Positions 3,795 to 60,244 are shown, numbered from the stretch's first letter. The stretch: 64,000 bases of DNA from Kiritimatiellia bacterium (GCA_017447805.1 JAFSMR010000022.1:1-64000); one strand, 5' to 3'. Notes: generated from the sequence alone by a model not told the origin. Numbers and translations: made by a program.

Positions 3795-4555
3795 TAGAAT
3801 TTGAGAACTGCAAGGTTCCGAATCGACACGAACCCTTGTCCTCGGGCCGACTCTGGCGAACCAAGAACTATGTGGTCAAGAAGACGGATGCCGAGAAGTC
3901 TGCCTGTCTCGATGAGGCGTTCGGTTATATCAATATCCTCCTTGCTCGGCTGCGGGTCACCGGACGGATGGTTATGAGCAACTATGATTGCGTAAGCACG
4001 ATATCTAACCGCCTCGCAAAACACATCTCTCGGATGGACTGGTGTGCGGCTTACCGATCCCTGTGAGATGTCTAAAGGTTCACATAATGCATGGAAATCT
4101 GGATCCATCGGCAAAACAAAAAAATGCTCCTTTTCTGGCGAGTCCTCGACTATGCGACAAAATACGCCGTAAGCGGCAGACGATGAACGCAGATTATACG
4201 ACCTAAAATCCCTGTTCTGCGCCGACTTGACACGTAGCACAAACTTGAACGCCGCCGCAATTTTCAAAAGCTTTGCATCGGCAAGACCCTTAATTAGTCG
4301 ATCGGGATTGTGTGCGTTATATTCCGCTATCCGCGCTTTCATCTCCAGCCAGTCTGCGCGGATAAACTCAGCAGGAGAATGGAATGCTTCAATCAAGCGA
4401 TGCGAAAGATCAAGGACAGGACACCCTGCCGCGCCAGAACCAATGACGATTGCAAGCAATTCTTCTTGCGAAAGCACGTCTCCTTTAGGATTTGAGGCAA
4501 GTTTTTCGCGTGGCATCAAATCGTTTGCTTCTCTATCTTGCCGCATCATATCCAT
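3794..4555 (-). CDS. RadC-family JAB/MPN-domain protein
   Basis: 253 aa from the ATG at 4555, which has AAAGGAG just upstream; the frame is open further back but overlaps the preceding gene. The N-terminal half is the helix-hairpin-helix part typical of RadC (PREKL...LLAIVIGSG). The C-terminal half is a JAB metalloprotease-like domain with AHNHPSGDPQPSKED, giving the H-x-H...D zinc ligands (H194, H196 and the following aspartate), then LLDHIVLG. RadC proteins are frequent on mobile elements but their biochemical role remains unsettled. The gene lies between the nuclease and Argonaute genes and overlaps both. It may be cargo or a regulatory protease of the system; the sequence does not decide. 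Confidence 0.85.
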   Translation of the reverse strand: MDMMRQDREANDLMPREKLASNPKGDVLSQEELLAIVIGSGAAGCPVLDLSHRLIEAFHSPAEFIRADWLEMKARIAEYNAHNPDRLIKGLADAKLLKIAAAFKFVLRVKSAQNRDFRSYNLRSSSAAYGVFCRIVEDSPEKEHFFVLPMDPDFHALCEPLDISQGSVSRTPVHPRDVFCEAVRYRAYAIIVAHNHPSGDPQPSKEDIDITERLIETGRLLGIRLLDHIVLGSPESARGQGFVSIRNLAVLKF

Positions 4556-19872: not shown

Positions 19873-20088
19873 ATGGAAGACGAATTCGAGTTCGAGGAGC
19901 GGATGGCGAAGCGGGCGATGCTCATTGAGAAAGCGATCCGCTACGCCATCGGCCTTGTCGTATTGACCGCCGTGGTGGCGTTCTTCTGCCGCATCGCGGC
20001 AAACAAGGCCGACTCGTCCGCGAGCGACCAGTGGATGCAGGCGATAGAGAACGTCCGGCGGGAGGCCGCGAAGAAGGAGGCGCGATGA
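19873..20088 (+). CDS. Small membrane protein
   Basis: 71 aa with one clear membrane helix (YAIGLVVLTAVVAFFC, about residues 24-40) between a charged acidic/basic N-terminus and a charged helical C-terminus. AGGAGG lies just before the ATG. The stop overlaps the primase start (ATGA). Function unknown; it may anchor the replication proteins encoded next to it or alter the membrane. Confidence 0.7.
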   Translation: MEDEFEFEERMAKRAMLIEKAIRYAIGLVVLTAVVAFFCRIAANKADSSASDQWMQAIENVRREAAKKEAR

Positions 20089-22337: not shown

Positions 22338-22354
22338 AGATATGTCAATGAATG

Positions 22355-22615
22355 TGTCAGCGTCTGTGTCAGCAACGTCGTCCGCACGGCGACACATGGC
22401 CGTTCATCCGTCAGCCGCGCTGACAGATGCGCTGACATATCCGCTGACGTTCGGGGAAGAGAAGAAGATGTGTAAAAACCCAATAAATACACATATTTTC
22501 TTCTTCTCTCTTCCATCTGTCAGCAATGTCGGCACCGGGTCGGCTCGGGGACCGTTTTCAGCCCGGAACAGCCGTTTATCCGTGTCCGCACCTCGCGCGC
22601 GCGAGGACGCTGACA
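22355..22615. repeat. TGTCAG/CTGACA iteron-like cluster, candidate replication origin
   Basis: Eight copies of TGTCAG or close variants in 260 bp: starts at 22355, 22367, 22409 (CGTCAG), 22420, 22432, 22444 (CTGACG), 22518 and 22610. The first two face the same way at 12-bp spacing; the next group is inverted, also at 12-bp spacing, around a GTCAGC-CGC-GCTGAC palindrome. CCTCGCGC/GCGCGAGG at 22591-22606 is a perfect 16-bp palindrome. The region has no credible gene and follows the primase-helicase. Regular spacing and dyads suggest binding sites for an initiator or a repressor. Confidence 0.5.
22455..22514. repeat. Long purine/pyrimidine hairpin
   Basis: The left arm GGAAGAGAAGAAGATGTGTA pairs with the right arm 22488-22514 (a pyrimidine-rich stretch beginning TACACA and ending TCTTCC), with a small bulge and an AT-rich loop. 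One arm is almost all purine. It lies inside the iteron-like region after the primase stop and could be a terminator, an unwinding element or a single-strand origin structure. Confidence 0.6.
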
Positions 22616-22896
22616 CAAAAAAGGACAACCCCGGACGGGGCAAAGGGCGCCAAAGCAATAGCGCTGTTGATCCCATACGGAGTTGTCGGCGAACAATATA
22701 CCCTATCGGCCCCGGAAAGTCAACGGGGCAAATGCGGAATCCGGCATTTTCGCGCTACTTCGCCCCGATGTCGGGTGATAAGGGATTATCGGCGGGCGGT
22801 TCCTCCCCAGCCCCTCCAGACGGCAGGGCGCGGGAAGGAGCGCGGCTAACAAGGAGACTTTATTTCTGTCGGGAAAATCCCGGAAAGGCAAAAGAC
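22616..22896. other. Gene-free stretch before the ParB-methyltransferase
   Basis: No credible reading frame. It holds GC-rich sequence, short inverted repeats such as ATCCGGCATT/GATGTCGGG-like segments, and near its end the ribosome-binding site GGAAAGG of the next gene. The methyltransferase frame is open through this stretch, but that extension lacks coding character and a start site. Confidence 0.5.
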
Positions 22897-24189
22897 ATGG
22901 CTAAAATCGAGAACTTGCGGATCGATTCGCTCACGCCATACGAGCGGAATCCGCGCAACAACGACCAGGCGGTCGCAGGCGTGGTCGCATCCATCCGCCA
23001 ATACGGATTCATCGGCGCGATCATCGTCAACAAGGATCGCGTCATCATCAACGGCCATACGCGCGTAAAGGCGATGAAGGAGCTGGGCGCGGAGACGATC
23101 CCCGCCATCGTGGTCGACCACCTCACGCCGGAGCAGGAGCGGGCGCTCCGCATCGCCGACAACAAGACCGGCGAGGTCGCGGAGTGGAACGAAGAGCTGC
23201 TCAAGGCCGAGTTGCAGGCTCTCCAGGAGGCCGGGTTCGACATGGACGCCCTTGGATTCGACACATCGGAGATCGACGAGCTGATCGGCGGCACGACCGA
23301 CGAAATCGGCGAAACCGATCCGAACGACGTGCCGGAGACGCCGGAAGTGCCGGTGTCGAAACCGGGCGAGGTGTACAGGCTCGGAAAGCACCTCCTCGTC
23401 TGCGGAGACTCCACCAAGGCGGAGGACGTGGCCAAGGTGTGCAAGCCGGGCGAAGCCGGACTGTGGCTCACCGACCCTCCGTACAACGTGGACTACCACG
23501 GCTCCGACGGACAGTCCATCCAGAATGATTCGATGGAGGACTCGAAGTTCCGCGAGTTCCTGCGAGCTGCATTCGCCGTGGCCGAAAAGTCGATGAAGCC
23601 GGGAGCGGCGTTCTACATCTTCCATGCCGATTCCGAGGGATACAACTTTCGCGGCGCTTGCTTCGACATCGGGCTTCGGGTCCGCCAGTGTCTTGTCTGG
23701 AAGAAGAACTCGCTCGTCCTTGGGCGGCAGGACTATCACTGGATTCACGAGCCCTGCCTCTACGGCTGGAAGGACGGTGCCGCGCACGAATGGTACGCCG
23801 ACCGCTCGCAGACAACCGTCATGGAGTTCAACAAGCCGAAGAAGAACGACCTCCACCCGACGATGAAGCCGGTGGAAATGCTCGTCTATCTCATCAAGAA
23901 CTCGACAAAACGCGGCGACGCCGTCCTCGACACCTTCGGCGGCAGCGGCTCGACGCTCATCGCCTGCCAGCAGACCGGGCGCGTGTGCAGGATGGTCGAA
24001 CTCGACCCGAAGTACTGCGACGCCATCCGCAGACGCTGGGCGGAATTCGTCAACGGCGAGGGCTGCGACTGGATCGCGCTCACGGCGCCAGACGCCGCAG
24101 GAGACACACCTTCCGGTACCACTACGGTACCACAGGACGCTGTACAGGGCGATACAGACGCCACGGAAGCACACGAATCCGCCCTATAG
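22897..24189 (+). CDS. ParB-domain DNA methyltransferase (N4/N6 type)
   Basis: 430 aa from ATG 22897 (GGAAAGG 9 nt upstream). Residues 1-100 are a ParB-like domain (DSLTPYERNPRNND, VIINGHTRVKAMKELG, IADNKTGE). The rest is a class-beta amino-methyltransferase with motif IV DPPYNVDYHG and motif I DTFGGSGSTLIAC, catalytic motif before SAM motif. It methylates adenine N6 or cytosine N4. This fusion is common in phages and probably protects phage DNA from restriction. A SAM synthetase gene follows directly. Confidence 0.93.
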   Translation: MAKIENLRIDSLTPYERNPRNNDQAVAGVVASIRQYGFIGAIIVNKDRVIINGHTRVKAMKELGAETIPAIVVDHLTPEQERALRIADNKTGEVAEWNEELLKAELQALQEAGFDMDALGFDTSEIDELIGGTTDEIGETDPNDVPETPEVPVSKPGEVYRLGKHLLVCGDSTKAEDVAKVCKPGEAGLWLTDPPYNVDYHGSDGQSIQNDSMEDSKFREFLRAAFAVAEKSMKPGAAFYIFHADSEGYNFRGACFDIGLRVRQCLVWKKNSLVLGRQDYHWIHEPCLYGWKDGAAHEWYADRSQTTVMEFNKPKKNDLHPTMKPVEMLVYLIKNSTKRGDAVLDTFGGSGSTLIACQQTGRVCRMVELDPKYCDAIRRRWAEFVNGEGCDWIALTAPDAAGDTPSGTTTVPQDAVQGDTDATEAHESAL

Positions 24190-25657: not shown

Positions 25658-25855
25658 ATGTCTGAATACAACGTGAAGGCTCTTCCGAAGGATGCGCTTG
25701 TGCGCGCCCTCAAGAACGCGGGGTCGAGGACGCTCACCGAGGAGACGCTTGAGGCCGACATCGCCGCCGGCGCGCCGGTGAACGAGAACGGCACGATCAA
25801 CCTCTACGACTACGCCGCGTGGATTCTCAAGACGGAGGCTTCCCGTGGCGGTTAG
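25658..25855 (+). CDS. Small protein upstream of terminase
   Basis: 65 aa from ATG 25658, with AGGAGG in front; it overlaps the terminase GTG start by 11 bases. Helical, slightly acidic, no motif recognised (ALPKDALVRALKNAGSRTL, then YDYAAWILKTEASRGG). The position suggests a small packaging partner or small-terminase substitute, because no conventional terS is seen; this is inference. Confidence 0.65.
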   Translation: MSEYNVKALPKDALVRALKNAGSRTLTEETLEADIAAGAPVNENGTINLYDYAAWILKTEASRGG

Positions 25856-28124
25856 ACCGGTACTCAAGAAGCTGAAGCCGACCGAGGTCGTGCGGATCAT
25901 GAACTCGACCGACTACGGGACGGTCTTGAGTTCGTCGCAGGTGTACCGCCACTTCGAGATGGGCGGCTACCGCATCGCCAGCCGCGAGGACTCGCGGTGC
26001 ATCAACTTCTTCTCATACGTCGCGTGGCTCGTCGACCGCCACAACGAGCCGGACGAGCCGGTCGCGGACTACGCAAGGCACCGCGACGAGATGTCGCGCA
26101 GACAGGCCGAGCAGTCGCTCGCTGGGCGCGACATCGGCGAGCTTCCGGCGGTCGAGGATGCGGAGCGCAAAGAGAGGTGCCGGCTCGACTTCCGGCTCTT
26201 CTGCGAGACGTACTTCCCGGAGGTGTATGTCCTCGAATGGTCGGAAGACCACCTCCGCGCCATCGCAAAGATACAGCAGGCCGTCCTCAGGGGCGGACTC
26301 TTCGCGCTTGCGATGTCGCGCGGGTCGGGAAAGTCCTCGCTCACGGAGACCGCCGCCATCTGGGCGATGCTCTACGGCCACCGCGAGTTCGTGGTCGTGA
26401 TCGGCGCGAGCGAATCCGCCGCGCTCGAAATACTCGATTCGATCAAGACGGAGCTTGAGGTGAACGAGCACCTCGCAGCCGACTTCCCGGAGGTCATATT
26501 CCCAATCCAGTGTCTCGACGGCATCGCCAACCGCTGCGCCGGACAGCTCTACAAGGGAGAACGCACACGAATCACGTGGACGGCGAACGAGATAGTGCTT
26601 CCTACCATCGCCGACGCGAAGTCCTCCGGCGTCCTCGTGCGCGTCGCGGGCATCACCGGGCGCATACGCGGCATGAAGTACAAGAAGCCCGACGGTCGCA
26701 CCATCCGCCCGGAATTCGTCATCATCGACGATCCGCAGACGAGCGAGTCGGCGGGATCGATGGAGCAGACCCGCAAACGTGTGCGTGTGCTGGCGGGCGA
26801 CATCCTCGGTCTCGCCGGGCCGGGAAAGAAGATATCAGGCATCATGCCCTGCACCGTCATCCGCCCCGGCGACATGGCCGAGCAGATTCTCGACAAGTCC
26901 CGCCATCCGGAATGGAACGGCGAACGGTGCAAGATGCTCTACCAGTTGCCGACGAACGAGGAGCTTTGGGCGAAGTACGCAGACATCCGCGCGGACGAGC
27001 TGCGCGACCACGGGACATTCGCCAAGGCGACGGAGTTCTACCGCGGCCACCAGGCGGAGATGGACGCCGGGGCGGTTGTCTCATGGAACGCCCGCTTCAA
27101 CTACGACGAGATTTCCGCCGTCCAGCACGCGATGAACTTGAAGCTGCAGGACGAGGCGGCGTTCTGGGCGGAATATCAGAACGAGCCTCTACCCGATGAC
27201 CTCGGCAGCGACGAGCAGCTCACCGTGGACGGGATCGTGAACAGGCTCAACGGCTGTTCGCGCGGAGCCGTCCCCGCATGGGCGAGCCACCTCACGATGT
27301 TCATCGACGTGCAGAAGACGCTGCTCTTCTACGTCGTGTGCGCCTGGAGCGACGAGTTCACCGGGGCGGTCGTGGACTACGGTGCGTGGCCGGACCAGAG
27401 GCGGCGGTATTTCACGCTCGCCGAGGCTAATCCGACCTTGCAGTCGAAGCATCCCCGGACGGGTCTCGAAGGATGTCTCTATGCGGGCATGAAGGAACTC
27501 ACGGAAAAGTATCTCGGCAAGGAATACACACGCGACGACGGCGCGGCGATGCGCATCGAGAAATGCCTCATCGACGCGAACTGGGGACAGTCCACCGAGG
27601 TCGTGTACCAGTTCTGCCGCGAGTCCGCCCATGCGAACATCATCGTCCCTTCGCACGGCAAGTACATCGGAGCGTCATCCAAGCCGATGGGAGAATACAA
27701 GCGGCTCGCAGGCGACCGGGTCGGACACAACTGGCGGATGCCGAACATTCGCGGCAAGCGGGTCGTGCGGCACGTCGTGTACGACACGAACTACTGGAAG
27801 AGCTTTGCAGCGAGCCGTCTTTTGACTTCACAGGGGGACAAGGGGTCGCTCACGCTGTGGGGGCGCAGCTCCGAGACGCATATGCTCTTCGCCGAACACC
27901 TCATCGCCGAGTACAGAGTCAGGACGGAGGGTCGCGGCAGGCGCGTGGAGGAGTGGAAGATGCGCCCGGAGGCACACGACAACCACTGGTGGGACGGACT
28001 CGTCGGCTGCGCGGTCGCGGCATCGATGTGCGGATGCGTCCTTGCCGGGACTGACATCGAGAAGCGCAAGGCGGCGAAACCAAGGCTGAAGCTCTCTGAT
28101 TTGAGGAAAAAAAGGAAATCGTAG
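25845..28124 (+). CDS. terL: Terminase large subunit
   Basis: 759 aa, GTG start at 25845. The ATPase domain has Walker A MSRGSGKSSLTETAAIWAML and Walker B VIIDDPQTSES with a downstream coupling motif. The C-terminal nuclease part shows acidic sites in LTMFIDVQKT, CLIDANWG and DNHWWDGLVG, the RNase H-like arrangement of GpA-type terminases. It packages phage DNA into proheads by ATP-driven translocation and cutting. About 90 extra N-terminal residues precede the ATPase core. The gene marks the start of the structural block. Confidence 0.93.
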   Translation: MAVRPVLKKLKPTEVVRIMNSTDYGTVLSSSQVYRHFEMGGYRIASREDSRCINFFSYVAWLVDRHNEPDEPVADYARHRDEMSRRQAEQSLAGRDIGELPAVEDAERKERCRLDFRLFCETYFPEVYVLEWSEDHLRAIAKIQQAVLRGGLFALAMSRGSGKSSLTETAAIWAMLYGHREFVVVIGASESAALEILDSIKTELEVNEHLAADFPEVIFPIQCLDGIANRCAGQLYKGERTRITWTANEIVLPTIADAKSSGVLVRVAGITGRIRGMKYKKPDGRTIRPEFVIIDDPQTSESAGSMEQTRKRVRVLAGDILGLAGPGKKISGIMPCTVIRPGDMAEQILDKSRHPEWNGERCKMLYQLPTNEELWAKYADIRADELRDHGTFAKATEFYRGHQAEMDAGAVVSWNARFNYDEISAVQHAMNLKLQDEAAFWAEYQNEPLPDDLGSDEQLTVDGIVNRLNGCSRGAVPAWASHLTMFIDVQKTLLFYVVCAWSDEFTGAVVDYGAWPDQRRRYFTLAEANPTLQSKHPRTGLEGCLYAGMKELTEKYLGKEYTRDDGAAMRIEKCLIDANWGQSTEVVYQFCRESAHANIIVPSHGKYIGASSKPMGEYKRLAGDRVGHNWRMPNIRGKRVVRHVVYDTNYWKSFAASRLLTSQGDKGSLTLWGRSSETHMLFAEHLIAEYRVRTEGRGRRVEEWKMRPEAHDNHWWDGLVGCAVAASMCGCVLAGTDIEKRKAAKPRLKLSDLRKKRKS

Positions 28125-28405: not shown

Positions 28406-30045
28406 GATACGGAAGCGTCTGCTCCGGCATCGAGGCGGCGAGTCTCGCATGGCACGGCCTCGGATGGGAGCCCATGTTCTTCGGGGAGGTCGAGCCGTTC
28501 CCGTCCGCCGTCCTCATGCGCCGCTGGGGCGCGACGAAGCCACTCCGCCCGCTCGACCCGGACGAGGCGTCCTCGCCGAAAGACCGGAAGATGCGAGAGT
28601 CTTGGCTGCGGGCGATAGACACCCTGCCCGAAGGCGGCTCCGTCCCGAACCTCGGCGACTTCACCAAGATACGGGAGAATGACTACGATGGAGCAATTGA
28701 CCTTCTTGTCGGCGGAACCCCCTGTCAGGCGTTCAGCATCGCGGGGCTCCGCAAGGGCCTCGCTGACCCTCGCGGCAACCTCTGCCTTGAATTTGCGAAA
28801 CTGGCTTTCCGCTCTCGCGCACGGGTGGTCGTTTGGGAAAACGTCCCCGGCGTCCTCACAAGCGGGAAAGGAAGCGATTTTGCCGGATTCCTATCGCTGC
28901 TCGCGGGATGGGAAGTCCCCGTCCCCGACGGAGGCTGGCAGCGGGCGGGAATCGTCACCAACGCCCCCGGATGCTACGGAGTGGCGTGGCGAGTGCTTGA
29001 CGCTCAATATACCAGAGTTCCCGAATTTCCGGGGGCGGTCCCGCAGCGAAGGCGTCGTGTCATCCTTGTCGGACATCTTGGTTCGTGGGAATATCCCGCA
29101 AAGGTTCTATTTGACGGTGAAATGTGCGGCGGGACTTCTGCGCCGCGCCGCGAAGCGCGGGAAGGATCTGCCGAGGATTCTCAAGGACGCGCTCCTTGCG
29201 CTCATACGGTCAGAATGCGCGCAGGCAAGCCCGGCGGCGGCAAGGGAGCCCTCGTCTCCGACGAACTGAGCCTCACGCTACAGACCGGCAATGACCAGAC
29301 GCTCTTCCAGTTCCCCTGCTGGTGGGACGGAAGCCAGCAGTCGGCAACGATCACGGCTTCAAGCGACCACCAGTTCATGCCCGACAAGCAGCAGCTCCAG
29401 TGCGTTGTGGACATGAGGCAAATCGACTCCGGCGACGGCGTGTCGCCGACATTGCTCTCGACCGACTACAAGGGCGGCAAGGCCATCTGCGATGACGTCT
29501 GCCCCACGCTCGACGCGAACTATCCCGCGAAGATGAACCGGCAGGACACGGGCAAGCTGATACAGGAGGTCTATGCCTTCGACTCGATGGCGTCCCACGC
29601 CATGAACTCGCCCAATCCCAAGTCGGGCATCCACAAAATCGATGTCTCGCGCACCATCGACACTCTCGACCCCTCGCCCTCGAAGAACCAGGGCGGCATG
29701 GCGATCGTAGAGGAGGAGACGCTCGGCTTCATCAAGAACGATGCGGGCGGAACGGACACCAAGGGCGAGAACGTGTTTCCCACAATCCGAGCCGACGTGA
29801 TGCCTGCCGTCGCGACGAGCGGAGTCCGAAGCGTAGTCAGGAAGCTCATGCCGGTCGAGTGCGAGCGGCTTATGGGTATGCCGGACGGATACACGCAGAT
29901 TCCGTGGAAAGGCAAGTCGGAGACGGAATGCCCGGACGGCCCCCGCTACAAGGCGCTCGGCAACTCCATGTGCGTGAACGTGATGATGTGGGTCGGACAG
30001 AGGATTCAGGCCGTCGAGGACGCCTGCGGAAAGGAGGCGCTCTGA
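28402..30045 (+). CDS. Phage DNA (cytosine-5-)-methyltransferase
   Basis: 547 aa, GTG start at 28402 (GGAGGAGG in front). Motif I is VCSGIEAASLAWHGLGW, motif IV GGTPCQAFSIAG with the catalytic cysteine, motif VI WENVPGV, motif VIII QRRRRVILVG and motif X ALGNSMCVNVM. About 200 residues between motifs VIII and X are a large target-recognition region. It is unrelated in detail to the methyltransferase of the left island. It sits between terminase and portal, so it is expressed late with structural genes and probably modifies DNA before packaging. Confidence 0.93.
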   Translation: MRYGSVCSGIEAASLAWHGLGWEPMFFGEVEPFPSAVLMRRWGATKPLRPLDPDEASSPKDRKMRESWLRAIDTLPEGGSVPNLGDFTKIRENDYDGAIDLLVGGTPCQAFSIAGLRKGLADPRGNLCLEFAKLAFRSRARVVVWENVPGVLTSGKGSDFAGFLSLLAGWEVPVPDGGWQRAGIVTNAPGCYGVAWRVLDAQYTRVPEFPGAVPQRRRRVILVGHLGSWEYPAKVLFDGEMCGGTSAPRREAREGSAEDSQGRAPCAHTVRMRAGKPGGGKGALVSDELSLTLQTGNDQTLFQFPCWWDGSQQSATITASSDHQFMPDKQQLQCVVDMRQIDSGDGVSPTLLSTDYKGGKAICDDVCPTLDANYPAKMNRQDTGKLIQEVYAFDSMASHAMNSPNPKSGIHKIDVSRTIDTLDPSPSKNQGGMAIVEEETLGFIKNDAGGTDTKGENVFPTIRADVMPAVATSGVRSVVRKLMPVECERLMGMPDGYTQIPWKGKSETECPDGPRYKALGNSMCVNVMMWVGQRIQAVEDACGKEAL

Positions 30046-31457
30046 TGCTGGACTTCCTCAAGCGCAAGGAACCCCGCAAGGCCATCCGGCTCTCGCTCCC
30101 GATGTGGATGAAGGCGCGGTTCGATGCCGCACAGACCACGAAGGACAACGCCCGCCACTGGGGTGCGGCGGAGTTTCTCTCCGCCGACGCGGAGGCCGAC
30201 CCCTCCGTGCGCAAGACGCTCCGCACCCGCGCCCGCTACGAGGTGCAGAACAACTCCTATGCGCGAGGCATCGTGAAGACGCTCGCCGACGATACGGTCG
30301 GCACCGGGCCGCGGCTCCAGATGCTGCTTGAGAGCGACGAGACGAACAACAGGATCGAACACGACTTCGCCGTGTGGGCGCAGAGAATCCGGCTCGCCTC
30401 GAAACTGCGCACCATCCGCATGGCGCGGTGCCAAGACGGCGAGGCGTTCGCCGTACTCGCGCAGAATCCAAGACTTTCAACGGACGTGAAGCTCGACCTC
30501 CAGCTCGTCGAAGCCGACCGGGTGACGGATGACGAAATGAAAACCGACGGCAGCTCGGTGGACGGCATCACGTTCGACCAATTCGGAAACCCGAAGTCCT
30601 ACCGTGTGCTGAAGAAGCATCCCGGCGGCACGGACTCCTTCAACATGGAGGCGTACACGGTCAAGGCCGAGAACATGATCCACGTGTTTCGGCAGGACCG
30701 CCCCGAACAGCACCGCGGAATCCCGGAGATCACGGCTGCGTTGCCGCTCTTTGCACACCTCCGGCGGTTCACGCTCGCGGTAGTCTCCGCAGCCGAGGCC
30801 GCTGCCGATTTCGCCGGCATTCTCTACACGGACGCGCCGGCGAGCGGAGAGGCGGACGCCGTTGAGGCGATGGACACCATCCAGCTTGAGCGCAATATGC
30901 TCCTTACGATGCCGGGCGGCTGGAAGATGTCGCAGGTGGACCCCAAGCAGCCCGTCACGACATACGGCGAGTTCAAGCGCGAAATCCTCAACGAGATTGC
31001 GCGATGCCTTTCGATGCCCTACAACATCGCGGCGGGGAACTCGTCCGGCTACAACTACGCATCCGGGCGTCTCGACCACCAGACCTACTACAAGGCGCTC
31101 AAGGTCGACCGCTCCTTCATGGAGACGGAGATTCTCGACCGCGTGTTCGACCTCTGGCTCAAGGAATGGTCGCTTGCGACGCGCACGACCATCGACCCGT
31201 GCGACTGCCGCCACGTGTGGTTCTGGGACGGGCAGGAGCACGTCGACCCCGGAAAGGAGGCAACCGCCCAGCAGATACGCCTCGACGCGAGGACGACGAC
31301 CCTCGCAGCCGAATACGCGAAGCAGGGAAAGGACTGGGAGACGGAGCTTCGGCAGATTGCAAGGGAGCGCAAGCTCATGAAGGAACTCGGCATCGAGTCC
31401 GAGGAAACGCGCAAGGATTCCGACAACGAAAACGAGGAGAAAGATGGAAACGAGTGA
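30045..31457 (+). CDS. Phage portal protein (lambda-type)
   Basis: 470 aa, start ATG 30045 overlapping the previous stop (TGATG). Typical lambda-B portal features: RARYEVQNNSYARGIVKTLAD near the N-terminus, TVGTGPRLQ, DRPEQHRGIPEITAALPLFAH and SMPYNIAAGNSSGYNYASGR. The protein forms the dodecameric ring through which DNA enters. The C-terminus is charged and helical. Followed with overlap by the protease-capsid gene. Confidence 0.93.
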   Translation: MLDFLKRKEPRKAIRLSLPMWMKARFDAAQTTKDNARHWGAAEFLSADAEADPSVRKTLRTRARYEVQNNSYARGIVKTLADDTVGTGPRLQMLLESDETNNRIEHDFAVWAQRIRLASKLRTIRMARCQDGEAFAVLAQNPRLSTDVKLDLQLVEADRVTDDEMKTDGSSVDGITFDQFGNPKSYRVLKKHPGGTDSFNMEAYTVKAENMIHVFRQDRPEQHRGIPEITAALPLFAHLRRFTLAVVSAAEAAADFAGILYTDAPASGEADAVEAMDTIQLERNMLLTMPGGWKMSQVDPKQPVTTYGEFKREILNEIARCLSMPYNIAAGNSSGYNYASGRLDHQTYYKALKVDRSFMETEILDRVFDLWLKEWSLATRTTIDPCDCRHVWFWDGQEHVDPGKEATAQQIRLDARTTTLAAEYAKQGKDWETELRQIARERKLMKELGIESEETRKDSDNENEEKDGNE

Positions 31458-36472: not shown

Positions 36473-36648
36473 TCAGCGCGGGGTTCGCCGTGGAGCGGCT
36501 CAAGGTGCTTGCCGGGGAGATTCTCGAAGTGGCGAAGGCGCTCCGTGAACGTCATCCCGGCGAGTATGCGAGCCGCGAGCGGCTCGGAATGCTCGAATCC
36601 GTGGCCGACGATTTCCTCGCAAGCGAAAACGGACAGGAGACCGCATAA
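36460..36648 (+). CDS. Small helical protein before tape measure
   Basis: 62 aa from ATG 36460 (GGGGAGG in front), overlapping the previous gene by 13 bases and touching the tape-measure start. Entirely helical and charged (FAVERLKVLAGEILEVAKAL), no known motif. It may be a further chaperone component. Confidence 0.65.
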   Translation: MCEIVSAGFAVERLKVLAGEILEVAKALRERHPGEYASRERLGMLESVADDFLASENGQETA

Positions 36649-39600
36649 TGGCGGCGACAGGCAACATAAAGGCGGGACGCGCCTACGTCGAGGTGACGGC
36701 GGAGACATCGAAGCTCCGGCGCAATCTCTCGGAGGCGCAGGCCCAACTGAGGGACTTCGGAAAGTCCTGCACGGCTCTGGGGCGGCAGATGGTCGCGCTC
36801 GGAGGCGCGCTGTCGCTGCCTTTCGCGCTCGCCGAGCGGTCTTTCGCCGGGTTCGACGACAAGATGCGGCTCGTCCAGGCCGTGACCGGCGCGACCGGGG
36901 AGGCCTTCGAGGAGCTGACGCGGACGGCGCAGAGGCTGGGGCGGGAGACGTCCTTCACGGCGCAGCAAGTGTCTGACGCCATGATCGCGCTCGGACGGAT
37001 GGGGTTCGATCCGTCCGAAATCGAAGCCTCGATCTCGTCCGTGCTGAACCTTTCCCGCGCCACCGGGACAGACTTGGCGGAATCCGCCGACATCGCCGCG
37101 AACTCGCTGCGCATCTTCGGGCTTGAGGCATCGAAGATGTCGAGCGTTTCCGACGTGCTGACGGTGACAGCCAACGGATCTGCGCAGACCCTGACCGACC
37201 TCTTCGAGGGACTCAAGATGGCCGGGCCGCAGGCGAAGGCGGCGGGCGAGAACATCAGCGACCTCTGCGCCGCGCTCGGCGTCATGGCCAACGTCGGCAT
37301 CAAGGGTTCGCTTGCCGGGACGGCGCTTCGCAAGTCGTTCTCGCGCTTTGCGAACATCGATGTGCAGAAGACGCTCAAGGGAGTGGGCGTCGAGGCCGTG
37401 GACGCAAGCGGAAACCTACGCAAGATGGCCGACATCATGCGCGACATCGCGGAGGTCTCCACCAAGATGCCGACCGCAGAACGTCTCGCGTTCATGGAGG
37501 ACGTGTTCGACATCCGCGGATCGCTTGCCGGCATTTCCCTCGGCGGGAACATCGAGGAGCTGGACGCCTTTCTCGTTAAGCTCAAGGACGTGCGTGGGCA
37601 GGCGGATGCGACAGCCAAGGCAATGGACGCAGGGATAGGCGGCTCGTTCCGTCTCTTCCAGAGCGCAGTCGAGGGCGCGATGAACGCGACGGGCGAAGCC
37701 CTGAACGACACCATCAAGCCGATGGTCGAGCGGATAACCGCAGTCATCAACTCGTTTACGAAATGGATCGAGGCGAACAAGGGGCTTGTCGCGTCGGTTG
37801 CCGTGACAGTCGGCTCGATTGCAGCCCTTGGGGCCGCATTGCTCACTATCGGCACCGTGTCTCGTGTGCTTTCTGGCGGCATTGGCGTCTTGTCCGGCGT
37901 GTTCTCTGCGTTCGCCGGAGTCCAGGCGGCTCTCGTATCCAAGGGCGTCATGGTCCAGGGGGCTTTTTCGCTCATGGCGCGGGCGTTTGCGGACTACCGC
38001 AACGCCGCAATCCCCGCGATGGTGGGAACGTCGAAGCTGCTCGCGGCTCTGAACCTTCCCATCGACAGCCGGGCGAAGCAGATAGCGGCGAGTCTCGTCC
38101 TTATGTCGAACGCAGAGGCCGCAGCCGCCGCGAAATCGGCGATAGCGAGCCGCTTCACGGCCATCACGGCGGCTCTCCGCAGCCTCAATGGTGCCACTAT
38201 CGCCGCCACAATCTCGACAAAGGCCCATGCCGCAGCCCAGACTGTCGCAGGAATCGCCGCAAAGGCCGCTACGGCGGCCCACGTCGCGTTCGCGGCTGTC
38301 GGACGGGCGCTGACCCTGTCCCACGCTAAAGCCGCGCTGACGGCGGGTGTCGCGGCAACGGCGAACGTTGCCCTCGCCGCAACAACCAAGGTCGTGGCCG
38401 CAGGGTATCTTGCCGCGTCCGCCGCCGCGACGGCTTTCTGCGCGATACCGATAACGTGGGTGTTGATCGGCATCGTGGCGGCTCTGGGCGGACTGTGCGC
38501 GTATATGGCCTCCGCGACGAAGCACACGGCGAGCCTCTCGGACGAGATGTCGAAGCTCCGCGACAAGGGAGACCAGCTGCGTTCGACCGACCAGCTTCGG
38601 ATGGAGCGACTTCAGCAGCTAGCCGAAAAGGAAAAACTCTCGAATGCAGAGATGCAGGAAGCGGAGAAGCTCTCGAACCAGCTCCAGGGGCGATACGGAT
38701 CTCTCGGCATCGCCATCGACCGCACGACGAACTCGATCTCCCTCGCGGCTGATGCACAGTCACGCTTCAACGAGGCGATGAAAGCGCAGGCGATCCACCA
38801 GATAGAGGCCGAGATCGCCGAGATGCAGAAGAACATCTCCGAACTCGACGAGGAGAACCGCTCGCTCTGCGGCGTCTGGATAAACACCTGGAACACGATA
38901 ACGTTCCGGGGCGACAAGGCGTCGAAGGAAATCGAGGAGAACGGCAAGAAGATGGTTGCAACGATGAAGAAGATCGCGGAAGCGCGCGAACGTCTCCGGG
39001 CCATCAAGGACGGTGACAAGGATGCACTCACGGGCGGAAAGACCGAACACGAGCAGCTTGAGGAGAAAGTGAACCAGGGGCGCGAGGAGAAGCACTCCAC
39101 AATGGACGAGGCCGACTCCGCCGCAAAGAAGGCGTCTGAAATCGAGAAGCGGCTCATCCGCGAGACACGGAGCGAACTCGAGAACGAAATCGCCGACATC
39201 GAGGAGCTGCGTGACGAGTACAAGAAGCTCATCCAGACGATGCTTTCCTACGAAAAGTCGAAGAAGGACAAGGACTTGGAGAAAATCGCCGATCTCGAAG
39301 GACGGCTCGCGGAGGCGGACGCCACGGCGGAACGCCGCATCAAGACAGCGGAAGCCAAGGCGAAGCGCAAGTTCGACAAGGAAATCGCCGACCTGCAGGA
39401 GGGATTCGACCAGACGGCGGAGGACATCGAGCGCCGGCGGAGCGAGGGAGAGACCGACCGCAGGGTCGAGGATGCTCTCAAGGAGGACGCCGCCAAGGGG
39501 ATGCAGATGCTGAACGAGCTGATCCTCCAGTCGAAAGTCGCAGCAGCCGCCGCGAAGGAGGAGTTCCGCAAGGCTCTCGCCGAAGCGCAGGAGGACGGAG

Positions 39601-39896
39601 ACATATCGGAGGACGAGGAGAAGCGCGTCCGCAAGGCGCAGGACGCCTACTCTCTCGCCGAGAGCCTTGTGGACAAGTATGCGGCGAAACTTCGCAGCGC
39701 ACAGGCGGCTACGGCGAAAAAGACCGACATAGCGAAGCCGCAAGGCGCGTTCTACGCCCGAGCGGCGCAGAATCTTCGCGGGTCACAGATGGAGCAGAGA
39801 ATGCTTACCGCGACGCAGGAGATCGTTAAGCACACCAAGAAGACCGCCGAACTGTTGAAGGACGGCGGGAACGGCGCAACACTCACTTTTCAATAG
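36648..39896 (+). CDS. Tail tape measure protein
   Basis: 1082 aa. Residues about 65-300 match the PhageMin_Tail domain (FDDKMRLVQAVTGATGEAFE, TAQRLGRETSFTAQQVSDAM, ALGVMANVGIKGSLAGTALR). Hydrophobic Ala/Gly-rich segments lie at about 380-430 and 570-625. The rest is long coiled coil, very rich in E, K and R (about 630-1030). It sets tail length and is probably ejected into the host membrane. It starts on the last base of the preceding stop and ends 12 nt before the next gene. Confidence 0.93.
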   Translation: MAATGNIKAGRAYVEVTAETSKLRRNLSEAQAQLRDFGKSCTALGRQMVALGGALSLPFALAERSFAGFDDKMRLVQAVTGATGEAFEELTRTAQRLGRETSFTAQQVSDAMIALGRMGFDPSEIEASISSVLNLSRATGTDLAESADIAANSLRIFGLEASKMSSVSDVLTVTANGSAQTLTDLFEGLKMAGPQAKAAGENISDLCAALGVMANVGIKGSLAGTALRKSFSRFANIDVQKTLKGVGVEAVDASGNLRKMADIMRDIAEVSTKMPTAERLAFMEDVFDIRGSLAGISLGGNIEELDAFLVKLKDVRGQADATAKAMDAGIGGSFRLFQSAVEGAMNATGEALNDTIKPMVERITAVINSFTKWIEANKGLVASVAVTVGSIAALGAALLTIGTVSRVLSGGIGVLSGVFSAFAGVQAALVSKGVMVQGAFSLMARAFADYRNAAIPAMVGTSKLLAALNLPIDSRAKQIAASLVLMSNAEAAAAAKSAIASRFTAITAALRSLNGATIAATISTKAHAAAQTVAGIAAKAATAAHVAFAAVGRALTLSHAKAALTAGVAATANVALAATTKVVAAGYLAASAAATAFCAIPITWVLIGIVAALGGLCAYMASATKHTASLSDEMSKLRDKGDQLRSTDQLRMERLQQLAEKEKLSNAEMQEAEKLSNQLQGRYGSLGIAIDRTTNSISLAADAQSRFNEAMKAQAIHQIEAEIAEMQKNISELDEENRSLCGVWINTWNTITFRGDKASKEIEENGKKMVATMKKIAEARERLRAIKDGDKDALTGGKTEHEQLEEKVNQGREEKHSTMDEADSAAKKASEIEKRLIRETRSELENEIADIEELRDEYKKLIQTMLSYEKSKKDKDLEKIADLEGRLAEADATAERRIKTAEAKAKRKFDKEIADLQEGFDQTAEDIERRRSEGETDRRVEDALKEDAAKGMQMLNELILQSKVAAAAAKEEFRKALAEAQEDGDISEDEEKRVRKAQDAYSLAESLVDKYAAKLRSAQAATAKKTDIAKPQGAFYARAAQNLRGSQMEQRMLTATQEIVKHTKKTAELLKDGGNGATLTFQ

Positions 39897-50988: not shown

Positions 50989-51417
50989 ATGGCGGACATC
51001 GATGAAGTGAAACGGCTCAAGGCTCTCTGCGAGAAGTACGAACTTGAGGGCAGGGAAATCCTCTCGAAGTACACGGACGATGAGCTTGCCGCGATATTCA
51101 ACGGCATCGGGCCGGACGCATTTCCGCAATGGCTGCGTTCCGCGCTCGACGCATTGCATCCCTCGCTCGCGCCCGTTGCGTTCATACACGATGTCGAGTG
51201 GCATGAGTCGGACGGGACGGAGACTGCATTCGCCGAAAGCAACGCCCGCTTCCGCAGGAACGGCTGCAAGGTTGCCTCCGCCGCATTTGGGTGGTGGCGT
51301 CCGCGCCGCTATCTCGTCATGTGGGACGCCGTCAAGTTCGCCCGAATCTGCCAGCGATTCGGCTGGTCAGCATGGCTCGCGCCGAGCAAGGCGCAGGAGA
51401 AAGGAGGTGCCGCATGA
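50989..51417 (+). CDS. Unrecognised 142-aa late protein
   Basis: 142 aa from ATG 50989. The first half is helical and charged (VKRLKALCEKYELEGREILS); the second has FIHDVEWHESDGTETAFAES and several tryptophans (FGWWRPRRYLVMW). No family recognised. Placement after the fibres and before a lipoprotein suggests the lysis neighbourhood, but there is no holin or lysozyme motif. The stop overlaps the lipoprotein start (ATGA). Confidence 0.6.
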   Translation: MADIDEVKRLKALCEKYELEGREILSKYTDDELAAIFNGIGPDAFPQWLRSALDALHPSLAPVAFIHDVEWHESDGTETAFAESNARFRRNGCKVASAAFGWWRPRRYLVMWDAVKFARICQRFGWSAWLAPSKAQEKGGAA

Positions 51418-51500
51418 AGCGGGCTGTCTTCGCCGTGTGCGGCGTTGCTTTCGCCGCCGTCATCTGCGGCTGCGCCAGCCAGCAGGTCGTGCAGCGGGAG

Positions 51501-51520
51501 TTATCAGGAATTCCTGATAA
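51501..51520. repeat. Perfect 20-bp palindrome at the left RIT junction
   Basis: TTATCAGGAATTCCTGATAA is fully self-complementary and contains GAATTC at its centre. GAATTC is also the first sequence after the right repeat. No equivalent palindrome is on the right, so it may be part of the element end or a target-site relic. Confidence 0.75.
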
Positions 51521-51523
51521 GTG

Positions 51524-51578
51524 GCGTTATCGTGATAAGCCAGTTATCATGATTTTCCCGATTTTCCTCCCGTTCTCT
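51524..51578 (+). repeat. Left terminal inverted repeat of the RIT element
   Basis: 55 bp starting GCGTTATCGTGATAAGCC. It matches the reverse complement of 54940-54994 over its whole length. It contains internal shorter repeats of the type TTATC, likely recombinase sub-sites. Confidence 0.9.
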
Positions 51579-51610
51579 CTGGGTTTCAAGTAGATTCCGT
51601 CCTGATAAAT

Positions 51611-51664
51611 GTTGAGGGGAAAGTTATAATATCGCCATGTCCCCGCGTGGGGACGACCCTCAAC
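51611..51664 (+). promoter_or_regulatory. RIT leader: -10 box and nested hairpins
   Basis: TATAAT at 51625-51630 lies inside a larger stem, GTTGAGGG (51611-51618) with CCCTCAAC (51657-51664). A second perfect stem GTCCCC/GGGGAC (51639-51654) has a 4-nt loop. The first recombinase ATG is 19 nt downstream. The nested structure could limit expression. Confidence 0.55.
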
Positions 51665-51683
51665 ATCAACGACAGGAATCACA

Positions 51684-52898
51684 ATGAACACAACAAAGGA
51701 ACTGCTTGCGGAATTGGACCGCCAGCTTGTAGCAAGGCAATATACGGTCAAGGGAAGGCAACTTGTCCGTGGTGTCTGCACAACCCTGCTTTCCGTGCAG
51801 GGGAGGACGCTCAAGGCAACGATTCGACGCGGCATTGACCATGTGCGCGGAATTCATGCGCATGGCGGCATGAGCATGGGGAACCTGAAATCACACATGC
51901 GATGGGCAAGACGCCTCGAAGGCCTTATGGAAGGCGACGAATCCATATGGTATCGCATCAAGCCAGGCCCAACCTATCACCTCTCCCGACACTACGCGAA
52001 CGTCCTCGACAATTTCCGTAGCATCTTGGGAGACCGTCCTTTTGATCGGTCGAGCTTAACAGCCGCCGGATTGTTCTTCGACTGGCTCATCGGCAGGGGC
52101 ATCAAGCGCATTGGCTCTCTAACGCCAGAGCTCATGCTTGAGTATGTGGCGAAGATACGGTCCACATCCAAAGGCAACGGTGTTAACCGCGTCAGGTCAA
52201 ATCTCAAGAGACTTGCCGCCTTTCTCGTCGGGAAAGCCCTTGTCCCCGCGACGTGCCTGCACGCCATCTCGCTCCCGGTAAGATGCCGGCATCGTCTCCT
52301 GCCGGCATTCACGCCAACGGAGCTGCATTCGCTGACGCAAGAGTTCGAGTCGAGACAGGACGGATACGGAAGGAGGAACCTCGCTGTCTTTCGGATTGCC
52401 GCTTCCACCGGAATGCGGGTAGGTGACATTGTGGGCCTTACCTTCAGGGACATCGACTGGAGTGCAGGGGAGATAAGGTGCGTCCAGTCGAAGACGGGTG
52501 TTCCGGTCAGGTGCCCTCTCATGCATGACGTCGGCGAGGCGCTTCGAGACTACATTCTGAACTTCCGCCCGAAGTGCGGCTCCGACAGGATATTCGTCAC
52601 CTCCATGACTCCGATACGACCGCTGGCATCGACGGCCATGACTGCGGCGTTCGCCAGGGCGATGAAGTCATGTGGCATTGAGAAATCCGCATACGACGGC
52701 AAGAGTCTGCACGCCATGCGCAGAACGGTCGGGCGAGACCTTGTGACGGCGGGTGTCCCACTTCCAACCGTGCAGCAGATACTGGGGCACTCCAGCGTTA
52801 GGGCGACAAGCAGGTACGTTGCACTCGACGCCCACGGTCTGCGCTCTTGCGCGCTTGGCCTTGACGGAATTGAGCCGGCGGAAGGAGGCGCGAGATGA
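51684..52898 (+). CDS. RIT tyrosine recombinase, first of trio
   Basis: 404 aa. The catalytic set is in order: R in STGMRVGDIVGL, K in QSKTG, H-x-x-R in LHAMRRTVG, H in ILGHSSV and tyrosine in SRYVALD. The N-terminal 180 residues are a core-binding domain with a basic patch. AGGA lies before the ATG. Its stop overlaps the second gene by four bases. It acts with the other two to move the element. Confidence 0.92.
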   Translation: MNTTKELLAELDRQLVARQYTVKGRQLVRGVCTTLLSVQGRTLKATIRRGIDHVRGIHAHGGMSMGNLKSHMRWARRLEGLMEGDESIWYRIKPGPTYHLSRHYANVLDNFRSILGDRPFDRSSLTAAGLFFDWLIGRGIKRIGSLTPELMLEYVAKIRSTSKGNGVNRVRSNLKRLAAFLVGKALVPATCLHAISLPVRCRHRLLPAFTPTELHSLTQEFESRQDGYGRRNLAVFRIAASTGMRVGDIVGLTFRDIDWSAGEIRCVQSKTGVPVRCPLMHDVGEALRDYILNFRPKCGSDRIFVTSMTPIRPLASTAMTAAFARAMKSCGIEKSAYDGKSLHAMRRTVGRDLVTAGVPLPTVQQILGHSSVRATSRYVALDAHGLRSCALGLDGIEPAEGGAR

Positions 52899-53872
52899 AG
52901 CACTTCAGGAGTTCCTTGGCTGCGCTCTTCGAGAAAGCCCTGTCGTTACGGCTTTCTCGCGGATTCGATGTCTCATACCACCGACAGCACTTCCTCGAGT
53001 TCGACGACTACTGTCACGCATGCTACCCTGACGCGACGACACTTACCGAAGATATGGTCAGGAACTGGCCGCAGTATGAAGTGTCGATAGGACGAGGCGG
53101 ATGCCTCCCGGAGAAGATGCTGTCCATCCGCCAGTTCGGACTATCCCTTCTGGCAGTCGGTATTCCGGCATATGTCCTGCCCGTCAAGTTTCTTCCGAAG
53201 CGGAAGCCAACCCGCCCCTATGTGATGACCGATGGCGAACTGGCAGAGCTGTTCCGGGCGGTTGACACCACTGGCGGCAACAGGTACGACCAGATGTTCC
53301 TGCGTTCCGCCCGTGTTCTGTTTCGCCTGCTGTACACCTGCGGTTTGCGTCCGGGCGAGGGAAGACTCCTCCGCGCAAGGGAAGTGGATCTCGATGATGG
53401 CACGTTGCTGATTTCAAAGAACAAGAAACACAAGCAGAGAATGGTTGCGATGTCGGACGACATGGCGCGGCTGCTCGGCTGCCACATCAAGACGGTGACG
53501 AGCAGATTCCCCCAGACGGAGTATGTTTTCGTGAACGAATCCGGTGTCCCGCCCTGCGAGAAGTGCTATGCGGAGTTTCTTCGCAAGTGTTGGGCGCGGG
53601 CGCATTCCCTCGACACGGACAAAGGTCTGCCACACATCCGTCTCTACGATTTTCGGCACAGATATGCTTCCGCAATCCTGCAGAAATGGACGGATGCCGG
53701 TGAAGACGTGTACAAGATGATCCCATACCTTCGGGCGTATCTCGGGCACGACGACTTCTCCTCGTCGCTGTATTACATACACATCCTCCCGGAGAACATA
53801 GTCTCGTCCCGCTCAATCGACTGGGACAAGGCAAACCGCTCGATACCGGAGGTGACGAATGAAGCTCGCTGA
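52895..53872 (+). CDS. RIT tyrosine recombinase, second of trio
   Basis: 325 aa. Catalytic R in TCGLRPGEGRL, K in SKNKKHKQR, box II RLYDFRHRYAS (where the usual first His is Tyr), H in YLGHDDF and tyrosine in SLYYIHI. The altered box II is plausible for a specialised trio subunit. It starts within the stop of the first gene (ATGA) and overlaps the third by 14 bases. Confidence 0.9.
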   Translation: MKHFRSSLAALFEKALSLRLSRGFDVSYHRQHFLEFDDYCHACYPDATTLTEDMVRNWPQYEVSIGRGGCLPEKMLSIRQFGLSLLAVGIPAYVLPVKFLPKRKPTRPYVMTDGELAELFRAVDTTGGNRYDQMFLRSARVLFRLLYTCGLRPGEGRLLRAREVDLDDGTLLISKNKKHKQRMVAMSDDMARLLGCHIKTVTSRFPQTEYVFVNESGVPPCEKCYAEFLRKCWARAHSLDTDKGLPHIRLYDFRHRYASAILQKWTDAGEDVYKMIPYLRAYLGHDDFSSSLYYIHILPENIVSSRSIDWDKANRSIPEVTNEAR

Positions 53873-54905
53873 CCCGCCCCTCTTCCGCCTGATACACGAC
53901 TTCTTCATGGTGCATCTTCCGTTCCAGAAGAAATGCAGCCCGCATACGATACGCGCATACCGGAAGTCGCTGACGATGTTCCTGGAGAGCGTGAAGGCGG
54001 CGCGTCGCATCTCCCTTGGTCAGGTGACGCTCGACATGCTCGACCGCAACGCGCTCGTCGCGTTTCTCGACAGCCTCGTCAAAGGTAACGGGAACAGCGT
54101 CACTACGCGCAACCACAGGCTTCACTGCATACGGGCGTTCTTCAGCTATGCGGCGAACGTCGACATGTCGTTTGCCTCGCATCACGGGTCGCTCCAGACC
54201 ATTGCCGATGCGCATGGCCCCAAGCGGCAGATCGTCGACTTCCTTGGCGAGTCGCAGATGAACGCGATACTCGATCAGCCTGTCGCTCGGACTCCCAAGG
54301 GGCTCAGAGACAAGACGATCCTGATCCTCATGTACGACATAGCGGCCCGCGTCGACGAGTTGACGGGGATTCGCATGAAAGACCTGAACCTCGACGGCAC
54401 TCCCATCGTTGCCTTGCACGGCAAGGGTGACAAGACCAGGGTTGTCCCGATAAGCGAAAAGGCGTTGCCTCACCTGAAGCGATATCTTTCCGCATTCCAT
54501 CCAGGGCAGGAATCCTCTTCCGTCGAGTATCTGTTCTTCACGAACGGACTTGGCGGGCAAAGACGGATGACCACGGACAACGTCAGACGCATCGTGGCCA
54601 AGTACTCTGCGCTGGCACGGCGAAAGGACAAGAGCATACCGGCTCGTGTACATCCGCACATGTTCAGGCACTCCCGTGCAATGCATCTGTACAGGAATGG
54701 CATGGATATAGTCCTTGTGTCGCAGTTCCTTGGCCATGCCCATCTTGAGACGACAATGATCTACGCATATGCGGATGCCGAGATGAAGCGCAAGGCGATA
54801 GCGTTGGCGGACAGCAAGCGCGATCCAGGAATCCCGGCGGACAAGTCTGCTGTCTTTCGGGTAAGCAATGAAGAAGAACTTATGAGGCTGCATGGTCTCG
54901 TCTGA
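53859..54905 (+). CDS. RIT tyrosine recombinase, third of trio
   Basis: 348 aa, XerC/D-like. N-terminal SAM-like domain (SPHTIRAYRKSLTMFLE), catalytic R in AARVDELTG, K in GKGDKTRVV, HPHMFRHSRAMH for box II, FLGHAHLETT and tyrosine in IYAYAD. Complete catalytic set, so probably the most active member. It ends 34 bp before the right inverted repeat. Confidence 0.92.
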   Translation: MKLADPPLFRLIHDFFMVHLPFQKKCSPHTIRAYRKSLTMFLESVKAARRISLGQVTLDMLDRNALVAFLDSLVKGNGNSVTTRNHRLHCIRAFFSYAANVDMSFASHHGSLQTIADAHGPKRQIVDFLGESQMNAILDQPVARTPKGLRDKTILILMYDIAARVDELTGIRMKDLNLDGTPIVALHGKGDKTRVVPISEKALPHLKRYLSAFHPGQESSSVEYLFFTNGLGGQRRMTTDNVRRIVAKYSALARRKDKSIPARVHPHMFRHSRAMHLYRNGMDIVLVSQFLGHAHLETTMIYAYADAEMKRKAIALADSKRDPGIPADKSAVFRVSNEEELMRLHGLV

Positions 54906-54939
54906 ACGCTTATCGTGACAAACCGCACGGCAAACCAGT

Positions 54940-54994
54940 AGAGAACGGGAGGAAAATCGGGAAAATCATGATAACTGGCTTATCACGATAACGC
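54940..54994 (-). repeat. Right terminal inverted repeat of the RIT element
   Basis: Reverse complement identical to 51524-51578 over 55 bp. It lies 34 bp after the third recombinase stop and directly before the resumed lipoprotein codons. Confidence 0.9.
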
Positions 54995-55179
54995 GAATTC
55001 TACGAACCCAACGAGGCCACCATGCGCGAGCGTGAGGACGGCCTCAAGGTCGGCGCCCTCAAGTCGGAGACCGTCAAGACCGGCCAGCCGGACTGGAGCA
55101 CCAAGTCAATCAGCCTCATCAGCGTCGGCAAGTGACCGGCGCGATGTCTAACAACAACCCATCCGAAAGGAGCGTCCAA

Positions 55180-55585: not shown

Positions 55586-55621
55586 GGGGCCGCGAATCGA
55601 GTCCCTATCCCATCGTCCGAC
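55586..55621 (-). repeat. Conserved 36-nt initial-transcript element, copy 1
   Basis: On the minus strand it begins directly after the -10 box of promoter B: GTCGGACGATGGGATAGGGA then a 16-nt rest ending GGCCCC. Identical to the copy at 60209-60244 and two mismatches from that at 56854-56889. It runs antisense toward the end of the upstream gene. Confidence 0.75.
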
Positions 55622-56853: not shown

Positions 56854-56889
56854 GGGGCCGTGAATCAAGTCCCTATCCCATCGTCCGAC
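56854..56889 (-). repeat. Conserved 36-nt initial-transcript element, copy 2
   Basis: Directly downstream of promoter D on the minus strand. Two differences from copies 1 and 3 (CTTGATTCAC for CTCGATTCGC). Transcription would be antisense to the DUF3846 gene. Confidence 0.75.
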
Positions 56890-60208: not shown

Positions 60209-60244
60209 GTCGGACGATGGGATAGGGACTCGATTCGCGGCCCC
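60209..60244 (+). repeat. Conserved 36-nt initial-transcript element, copy 3
   Basis: Identical to the element at 55586-55621 but on the plus strand, again starting right after a -10 box. No reading frame of note follows. Confidence 0.75.

Follow-up and report, generated by a model that had tools for sequence, protein, structure and literature searches.

RIT elements, of which ritABC of Cupriavidus metallidurans CH34 is an example (PMC2864759, PMC3414803), consist of a trio of overlapping tyrosine recombinase genes in the order A-B-C, measure about 3.5 kb and end in terminal inverted repeats; they are frequently located in transposase genes. In a survey from 2012 the inverted repeat was described as 28–29 bp with an overlapping palindromic sequence, and the need for three recombinases was not apparent (PMC3414803). 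RitA has been described as possessing two CB domains and RitC an extra C-terminal helix (PMC8138268). The target specificity, the empty site and the movement of RITs are listed as untested in a survey from 2023 (PMC10214605).

Several features of RITs are also met in other systems. The SE/GInt elements share with RITs the possession of several recombinase genes, target specificity and 6-bp spacers, and in SEs, as is proposed here for RITs, one 6-mer is carried from the donor to the new site. They differ in that four proteins are needed, the cargo is different and no palindrome common to two core sites is described in the literature compared. The RIT core layout GATAA-N6-TTATC resembles the dif site of the Xer/dif system; elements using Xer/dif differ from RITs, which encode three recombinases of their own, and none of the RIT targets in this study is a dif site. 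As cited in PMC10214605, the Tn554 family likewise has three transposition genes (two of them for tyrosine recombinases), a specific target and a 6-bp footprint that travels with the element. Its TnpC is not a Rit-type recombinase, and no 20-bp palindrome is described for it in the literature compared.

The present paper concerns a new RIT element, of this already known kind and with the same trio, size and terminal repeats, which interrupts a phage lipoprotein gene.

Materials and methods

The window, i.e. the whole stretch of DNA analysed, comprises the initial 64 kb of a contig of 159,570 bp (G000:C10), which belongs to a genome of 74 contigs. The element was compared with about 30 relatives, RITs of many phyla. 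Uninterrupted phage loci were reached via relatives of the gene immediately upstream of the lipoprotein gene, and the lipoprotein homologues compared were L007/L008/L087-L093. Empty sites of other RITs were sought with BLAST queries in which six Ns linked the flanks on either side of the element.

Results

As judged by the phage genes of the window (Table 1), the region that holds the RIT element is a phage or prophage. The three rit genes lie on one strand with overlaps of 4 and 14 bp, and PF00589 was found in all three products alike. RitA and RitC have the motif R...HxxR...H...Y and RitB has R...YxxR...H...Y, as do the two other RitB proteins aligned. The trio could be aligned gene by gene to the trios of L014 and L015, and homologues obtained with RitB as the query are the middle gene in annotated trios. 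The two RitA proteins from Kiritimatiellae used for comparison are shorter than that of the window by about 80 aa. The best match of RitC among solved structures is XerD, and no relatives of the RitC protein were found among viral contigs.

Table 1 Features of the window and of the RIT element
Feature	Position	Strand	Remarks
Primase	19929-22337		phage gene
Terminase large subunit	25782-28124		phage gene
Lambda-type portal	29496-31457		phage gene
Minor tail protein	36549-39896		phage gene
half1, lipoprotein gene 5' part	51414-51494	+	ATG at 51414 overlaps upstream stop (ATGA)
Inserted DNA	51495-54991		palindrome included
X6, CGGGAG	51495-51500	+	spacer between target and palindrome; probably element-borne, from an earlier target
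P, TTATCAGGAATTCCTGATAA	51501-51520	.	perfect 20-bp palindrome; two recombinase half-sites back to back
y6, GTGGCG	51521-51526	+	spacer between P and element; on the other strand CGCCAC, as at the target site of the uninterrupted L096
55-bp inverted repeat	51524-51578 / 54940-54994		exact; imperfect extension to ~98 nt, 81%
E	51527-54991		3465 bp
Left terminal inverted repeat	51527-51616	+	outer site TTATCGTGAT; inner site TTATCATGAT 17 bp further in
ritA	51684-52898	+	tyrosine recombinase, 404 aa; R245, H343, R346, H369, Y378
ritB	52895-53872	+	tyrosine recombinase, 325 aa; R152, R254, H285, Y293/Y294; Tyr251 replaces the first His of the motif
ritC	53859-54905	+	tyrosine recombinase, 348 aa; R164, H267, R270, H293, Y302
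Right terminal inverted repeat	54902-54991	-	outer and inner sites as on the left; palindrome absent beyond
z6, CGCGAA	54992-54997	+	codons Arg-Glu; probably the phage gene's own, from the empty sites of five other RITs
half2, lipoprotein gene 3' part	54998-55135	+	TTC TAC GAA CCC ...; stop 55133-55135

The element is apparently intact. Its boundary is not that of the 55-bp repeat, the outer GCG of which falls within the 6-bp spacers. The palindrome P is present only at the left border; palindromes of this quality (10/10) occurred about 3 times per 100,000 windows in the DNA compared here. No further copies were found in the source genome, where the element is single, and a pattern based on the inverted repeat matched, across the genomes of the family, the window and one chance sequence in G019.

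An initial annotation, which had described three overlapping tyrosine recombinases, perfect 55-bp inverted repeats and a 20-bp palindrome at the left border alone, is borne out in these respects. The recent insertion that it deduced is plausible, but perfect repeats do not prove it, since function may keep them so. The palindrome is informative, as was supposed there, but it belongs to the recombination site of the element and not to the target. The search for other copies that it suggested gave none in the genome, and its proposal that GAATTC may reveal the target rule had to be abandoned: empty sites differ, and RITs at other targets have other palindrome centres. Its presence at both borders is a coincidence, the left GAATTC being the centre of the palindrome and the right one the gene codons GAA-TTC.

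When 51414-51494 was joined to 54992-55135 a collinear lipoprotein of 74 aa (...VVQREFYEPNEATMRERED...) was obtained, the gene being split in frame, in accordance with the initial reading. Uninterrupted, collinear relatives confirmed this: L007/L008 encode an unbroken MRRLVLCC...ERHYYEPTES...SISLISVGK, and L087 (G093), the closest uninterrupted relative, has CAG CGC GAG TTC TAC GAG CCT, i.e. the QREFYEP that the rejoined halves predict. The reconstruction has thus withstood the test named in the initial annotation, which a mismatch between an uninterrupted homologue and the joined fragments would have failed. Empty sites of the gene family read CGGCAC-TATTAC, CGCGAG-TTCTAC and CGCCAC-TACTAC. 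In the window, half1 ends in ...GTGCAG and is followed by X6, P, y6, E, z6 and half2 (TTCTACGAACCC). Read in the polarity of the target, the three 6-mers encode Arg-Glu (X6, CGGGAG), Arg-His (rc(y6), CGCCAC) and Arg-Glu (z6, CGCGAA). The corresponding 6-mers of empty relatives are CGCGAG, CGGCAC and AGGGAG, and L096 has exactly CGCCAC, the sequence of rc(y6), at these codons.

Both X6 and z6 are one base away from the 6-mer of L087, the nearest empty relative, and the assignment of the 6-mers of the window therefore rests on other RITs. From these we infer that CGCGAA is the phage's own 6-mer and that CGGGAG and CGCCAC came from other members of the phage gene family. If so, the lineage of the element appears to move among phages at one codon pair, the Arg-Glu/Arg-His pair of the lipoprotein. 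An element of the same kind is present at the same codon in L009, as AGGCAC-TTATCAGGAATTCCTGATAA-GTGGCG-TTATCGTGATAAGCC, with P and y6 as in the window. Because its flanking codons differ and the internal repeat sequence diverges, it looks like a separate insertion; an old shared insertion is the less likely alternative.

The exact 20-mer P was found in 5 of the 115 genomes of the family, all of one genus. It adjoins the RIT end, on the right-hand side and with 6 bp between, in G059 and G100, and an identical P stands beside the RITs of L009, L014 and L050. The palindromes of RITs from an archaeon, a spirochaete, Firmicutes, Actinobacteria and Proteobacteria differ from it and share one build: a 20-bp palindrome, 6 bp to the outer repeat site and an inner site 17 bp further in. 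The elements end in TTATC-like inverted repeats whose outer and inner sites are 17 bp apart; for the halves of P, the best match to the repeat is at offset 0 or 17. Of 49 RIT or RitB-like loci, 33 contain the motif P-6-outer-7-inner, which had no match in 407,718 bp of control DNA. At the thresholds used it was absent from the other 16; L025 has a P that scores just below. A clear P motif was not found in L026-L027, L035-L036, L038, L040, L042-L043, L061, L063, L069, L071 and L072. Truncation, degradation or rearrangement affects many of the loci that lack the motif, and some of them may be something other than ordinary RITs.

Solo copies of P, without a RIT, occur in the genus of the window at L046 1501-1520 (G053:C61) and L047 36-55 (G055:C45). 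The copy in G053 stands as CTCGGG-P-CTCGGG in a dispersed sequence, of which the unoccupied copies in the same genome have a single CTCGGG. As the solo-P copy has two and the unoccupied copies one, P itself was inserted there, and both solo copies are probable footprints. P is present at both ends in two exceptional loci, L032 and L064. The latter, a Rhodococcus RIT, has P at 2050 and 5597 and half1 of the YhcG target on both sides; because both flanks are half1, the locus was read as a chimera, which suggests recombination between two inverted copies.

In two RITs the stretch from the recombinase genes to a P-marked end seems to hold cargo, namely a histidine kinase and a response regulator in L066 (395-2262) and a HEPN-domain protein in L068 (5424-6541).

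The integrated form follows one rule, half1–X6–P–y6–E–z6–half2, in which P keeps to one fixed side of the target and E may lie either way. The spacers have a dif-like layout, GATAA-N6-TTATC, where N6 is the 6-bp spacer. In rhizobia, seven copies are inserted at the same two codons of IS66 transposase genes, with E in one direction in three and in the other in four, and P is always upstream in the reading direction of the transposase, mostly after ...TTCAG or ...TGCAG. Opposite orientations of E with P on the same side of the target were also seen for two Priestia copies in an ArdC/M78-type gene and for the Arachnia and Rhodococcus copies in the YhcG nuclease gene. The side of P was thus determined by the target in 11 of 11 copies, for which the probability is 1/256 if side and target are independent. 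Once rejoined, the targets are family members across the junction, namely IS66 TnpC, IS66 TnpB, ArdC-N with peptidase M78, YhcG, two tyrosine recombinases and the reverse transcriptase (RT) of a group II intron. By eye, no convincing likeness was found between target half-sites and element half-sites.

RITs in genes of other mobile elements were observed at conserved motifs in L062, L065, L067 and L070; the motifs hit are RHTTAMH and TYWYLS of recombinases, DPFSG of IS66 TnpB and QGGVLSPLL of the intron RT.

Uninterrupted copies matched the joined flanks as single ungapped pieces. The empty site is exactly half1–6 bp–half2, and its 6-mer equalled z6 in all five other RITs, informatively in four: GTGAGT in L053 (X6 GTCAAC), ACAGCA in L055 (X6 ACGGCG), GGTGGC in L070 (X6 GGGGGT; flanks 193/200) and ACGGCA in L059 (X6 ACCGCC). 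For L059 the intact copy was found in the strain itself, on a different plasmid, and its flanks agree at all of 200 bases. The fifth, ACCTGC in L058, is uninformative, X6 being identical. The host 6-mer is accordingly on one fixed side and the element-borne 6-mer on the other in these five RITs, which resembles the strand-biased 6-bp exchange of SEs as an analogy of mechanism only.

Within an element, X6, rc(y6) and z6 agree with a mean identity of 0.73, compared to 0.30 when they are shuffled among targets (11 target groups), and none of 20,000 shuffles reached the observed agreement. It is seen in the predicted polarity only, the opposite polarity giving 0.21-0.23. The differences are largely synonymous or conservative, e.g. 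Thr-Ala/Thr-Cys in IS66, Gly-Gly in the intron RT and Ile/Val-Asp in YhcG. L024 and L025, in which the spacers are not alike, are exceptions. X6 and rc(y6) have apparently been retained from the homologous targets of earlier hosts, to judge from this pattern.

Across 17 elements, the 6-mers of any one element never differ at position 1 and agree at position 2 in 92% of comparisons, the variation lying in positions 3-6. This pattern reflects either a homology check at one edge of the crossover or codon phase.

Discussion

The best explanation, and in our judgement a probable one, is that the RIT was inserted site-specifically at the Arg-Glu codons of the phage gene, in the form half1-X6-P-y6-E-z6-half2, by way of a P-bearing circle and a strand-biased exchange. 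The moving form would be a circle in which one P joins both ends, [E end]-N6-[P]-N6-[E end]. A circle of this build would contain two core sites of opposite polarity, since P is a palindrome, and an asymmetric attB (half1-6 bp-half2) could recombine with either of them. The core site used would set the orientation of E, and P would always end up beside half1. If strand exchange is biased, the target's own 6 bp would stay on the E side and the element would leave a donor-derived 6-mer on the P side. On departure the element would take up the local 6-mer, and the spacers would therefore record former targets, while synonymous or similar codons would remain in the donor gene. If E alone were excised, a solo P would stay behind, as in the two genomes of the genus (G053, G055). 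More generally, we lean towards the view that one palindrome with two opposite core sites is the attachment module of RITs, which would allow an element with three recombinases to insert either way at an asymmetric, conserved motif of a protein-coding gene, fix the side of P and store 6-bp records of formerly occupied genes in the two spacers.

Other explanations were considered for the same features. P could be a pre-existing landing pad in host DNA beside which RITs insert, as the identical solo copies in G053 and G055, of the same genus, might indicate. However, the empty IS66, ArdC/M78, group II intron RT and phage lipoprotein sites contain no P, which would moreover cause a frameshift in the lipoprotein gene, and the two CTCGGG around P in G053 compared to one in unoccupied copies mark P as inserted, so that a landing pad seems very improbable. 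A plain 6-bp duplication is scarcely credible: the element codes for tyrosine recombinases only, X6 and z6 differ in many elements, and it is z6 that the empty site contains (L053, L055, L059, L070), although the two 6-mers are equal in L052, L058, L065 and L067. It could also be argued that X6-P-y6 is one fold-back of about 32 bp, kept for its hairpin, and that the likeness of X6 and y6 is structural instead of a record of targets. X6 and y6 are indeed complementary in most elements, the L014 sequence is a perfect 32-bp palindrome, and the window strand folds better than 200 of 200 shuffles (z -4.6). Yet z6, which is 3.4 kb off, resembles X6 equally well, the differences between the IS66 spacers are mostly at wobble positions or Ala/Cys, and in the window codon changes separate X6 from rc(y6) (RE compared to RH), the latter being the target 6-mer of another phage. 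We regard a purely structural origin as distinctly unlikely.

The copy in the window might itself be an immobile relic, whose architecture reflects past activity only. There is a single copy in the genome and no excised form is known; against this, the three genes are open with their catalytic residues, the 55-bp ends are perfect, P and the spacers are intact, and another phage (L009) has an independent-looking insertion at the same codon. A relic is thus unlikely.

The attachment-site rule and the 6-mer records appear to be new, as they are absent from the literature compared, the scope of which ended short of Ricker 2013 and Van Houdt 2009. The layout of an outer plus an inner site, 10 + 7 + ~11 bp, would account for the 28-bp repeat. 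Only three genes lie between the ends of the window element, compared to the four core genes that define SE/GInt.

RITs are widespread, and the rule gives their exact ends, the empty site and the position of the crossover. The junction of the circle is predicted to the base, and the reaction can therefore be set up directly in the laboratory. The rule also accounts for the one-sided palindrome, which had seemed an oddity. A number of RIT lineages home in on motifs that are conserved in other mobile elements' genes, the targets being those for the IS66 transposase, recombinases and the reverse transcriptase of group II introns, ArdC-like genes of plasmids and, in the window, a phage gene. The stored 6-mers would provide a means of reading the earlier hosts of an element from its sequence.

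Some further genes and sites of the window were observed. A 665-aa protein encoded at 1878-3875 (-), on the contig that also bears the phage genes, contains a Piwi domain (PF02171, E 1.5e-9) and is likely a prokaryotic Argonaute. Amid the phage replication genes, at 22330-24189 (+), there is a DNA N6/N4 methylase with an N-terminal ParB-like domain. The 23-bp sequence AATCGAGTCCCTATCCCATCGTC occurs three times adjoining phage genes, at 55595-55617 (+), 56863-56885 (+) and 60213-60235 (-), with a mismatch in one of the copies. With one base left free, it is also found close to the lipoprotein region of the related phages L008, L088-L090 and L092, and it is perhaps a phage regulatory site.
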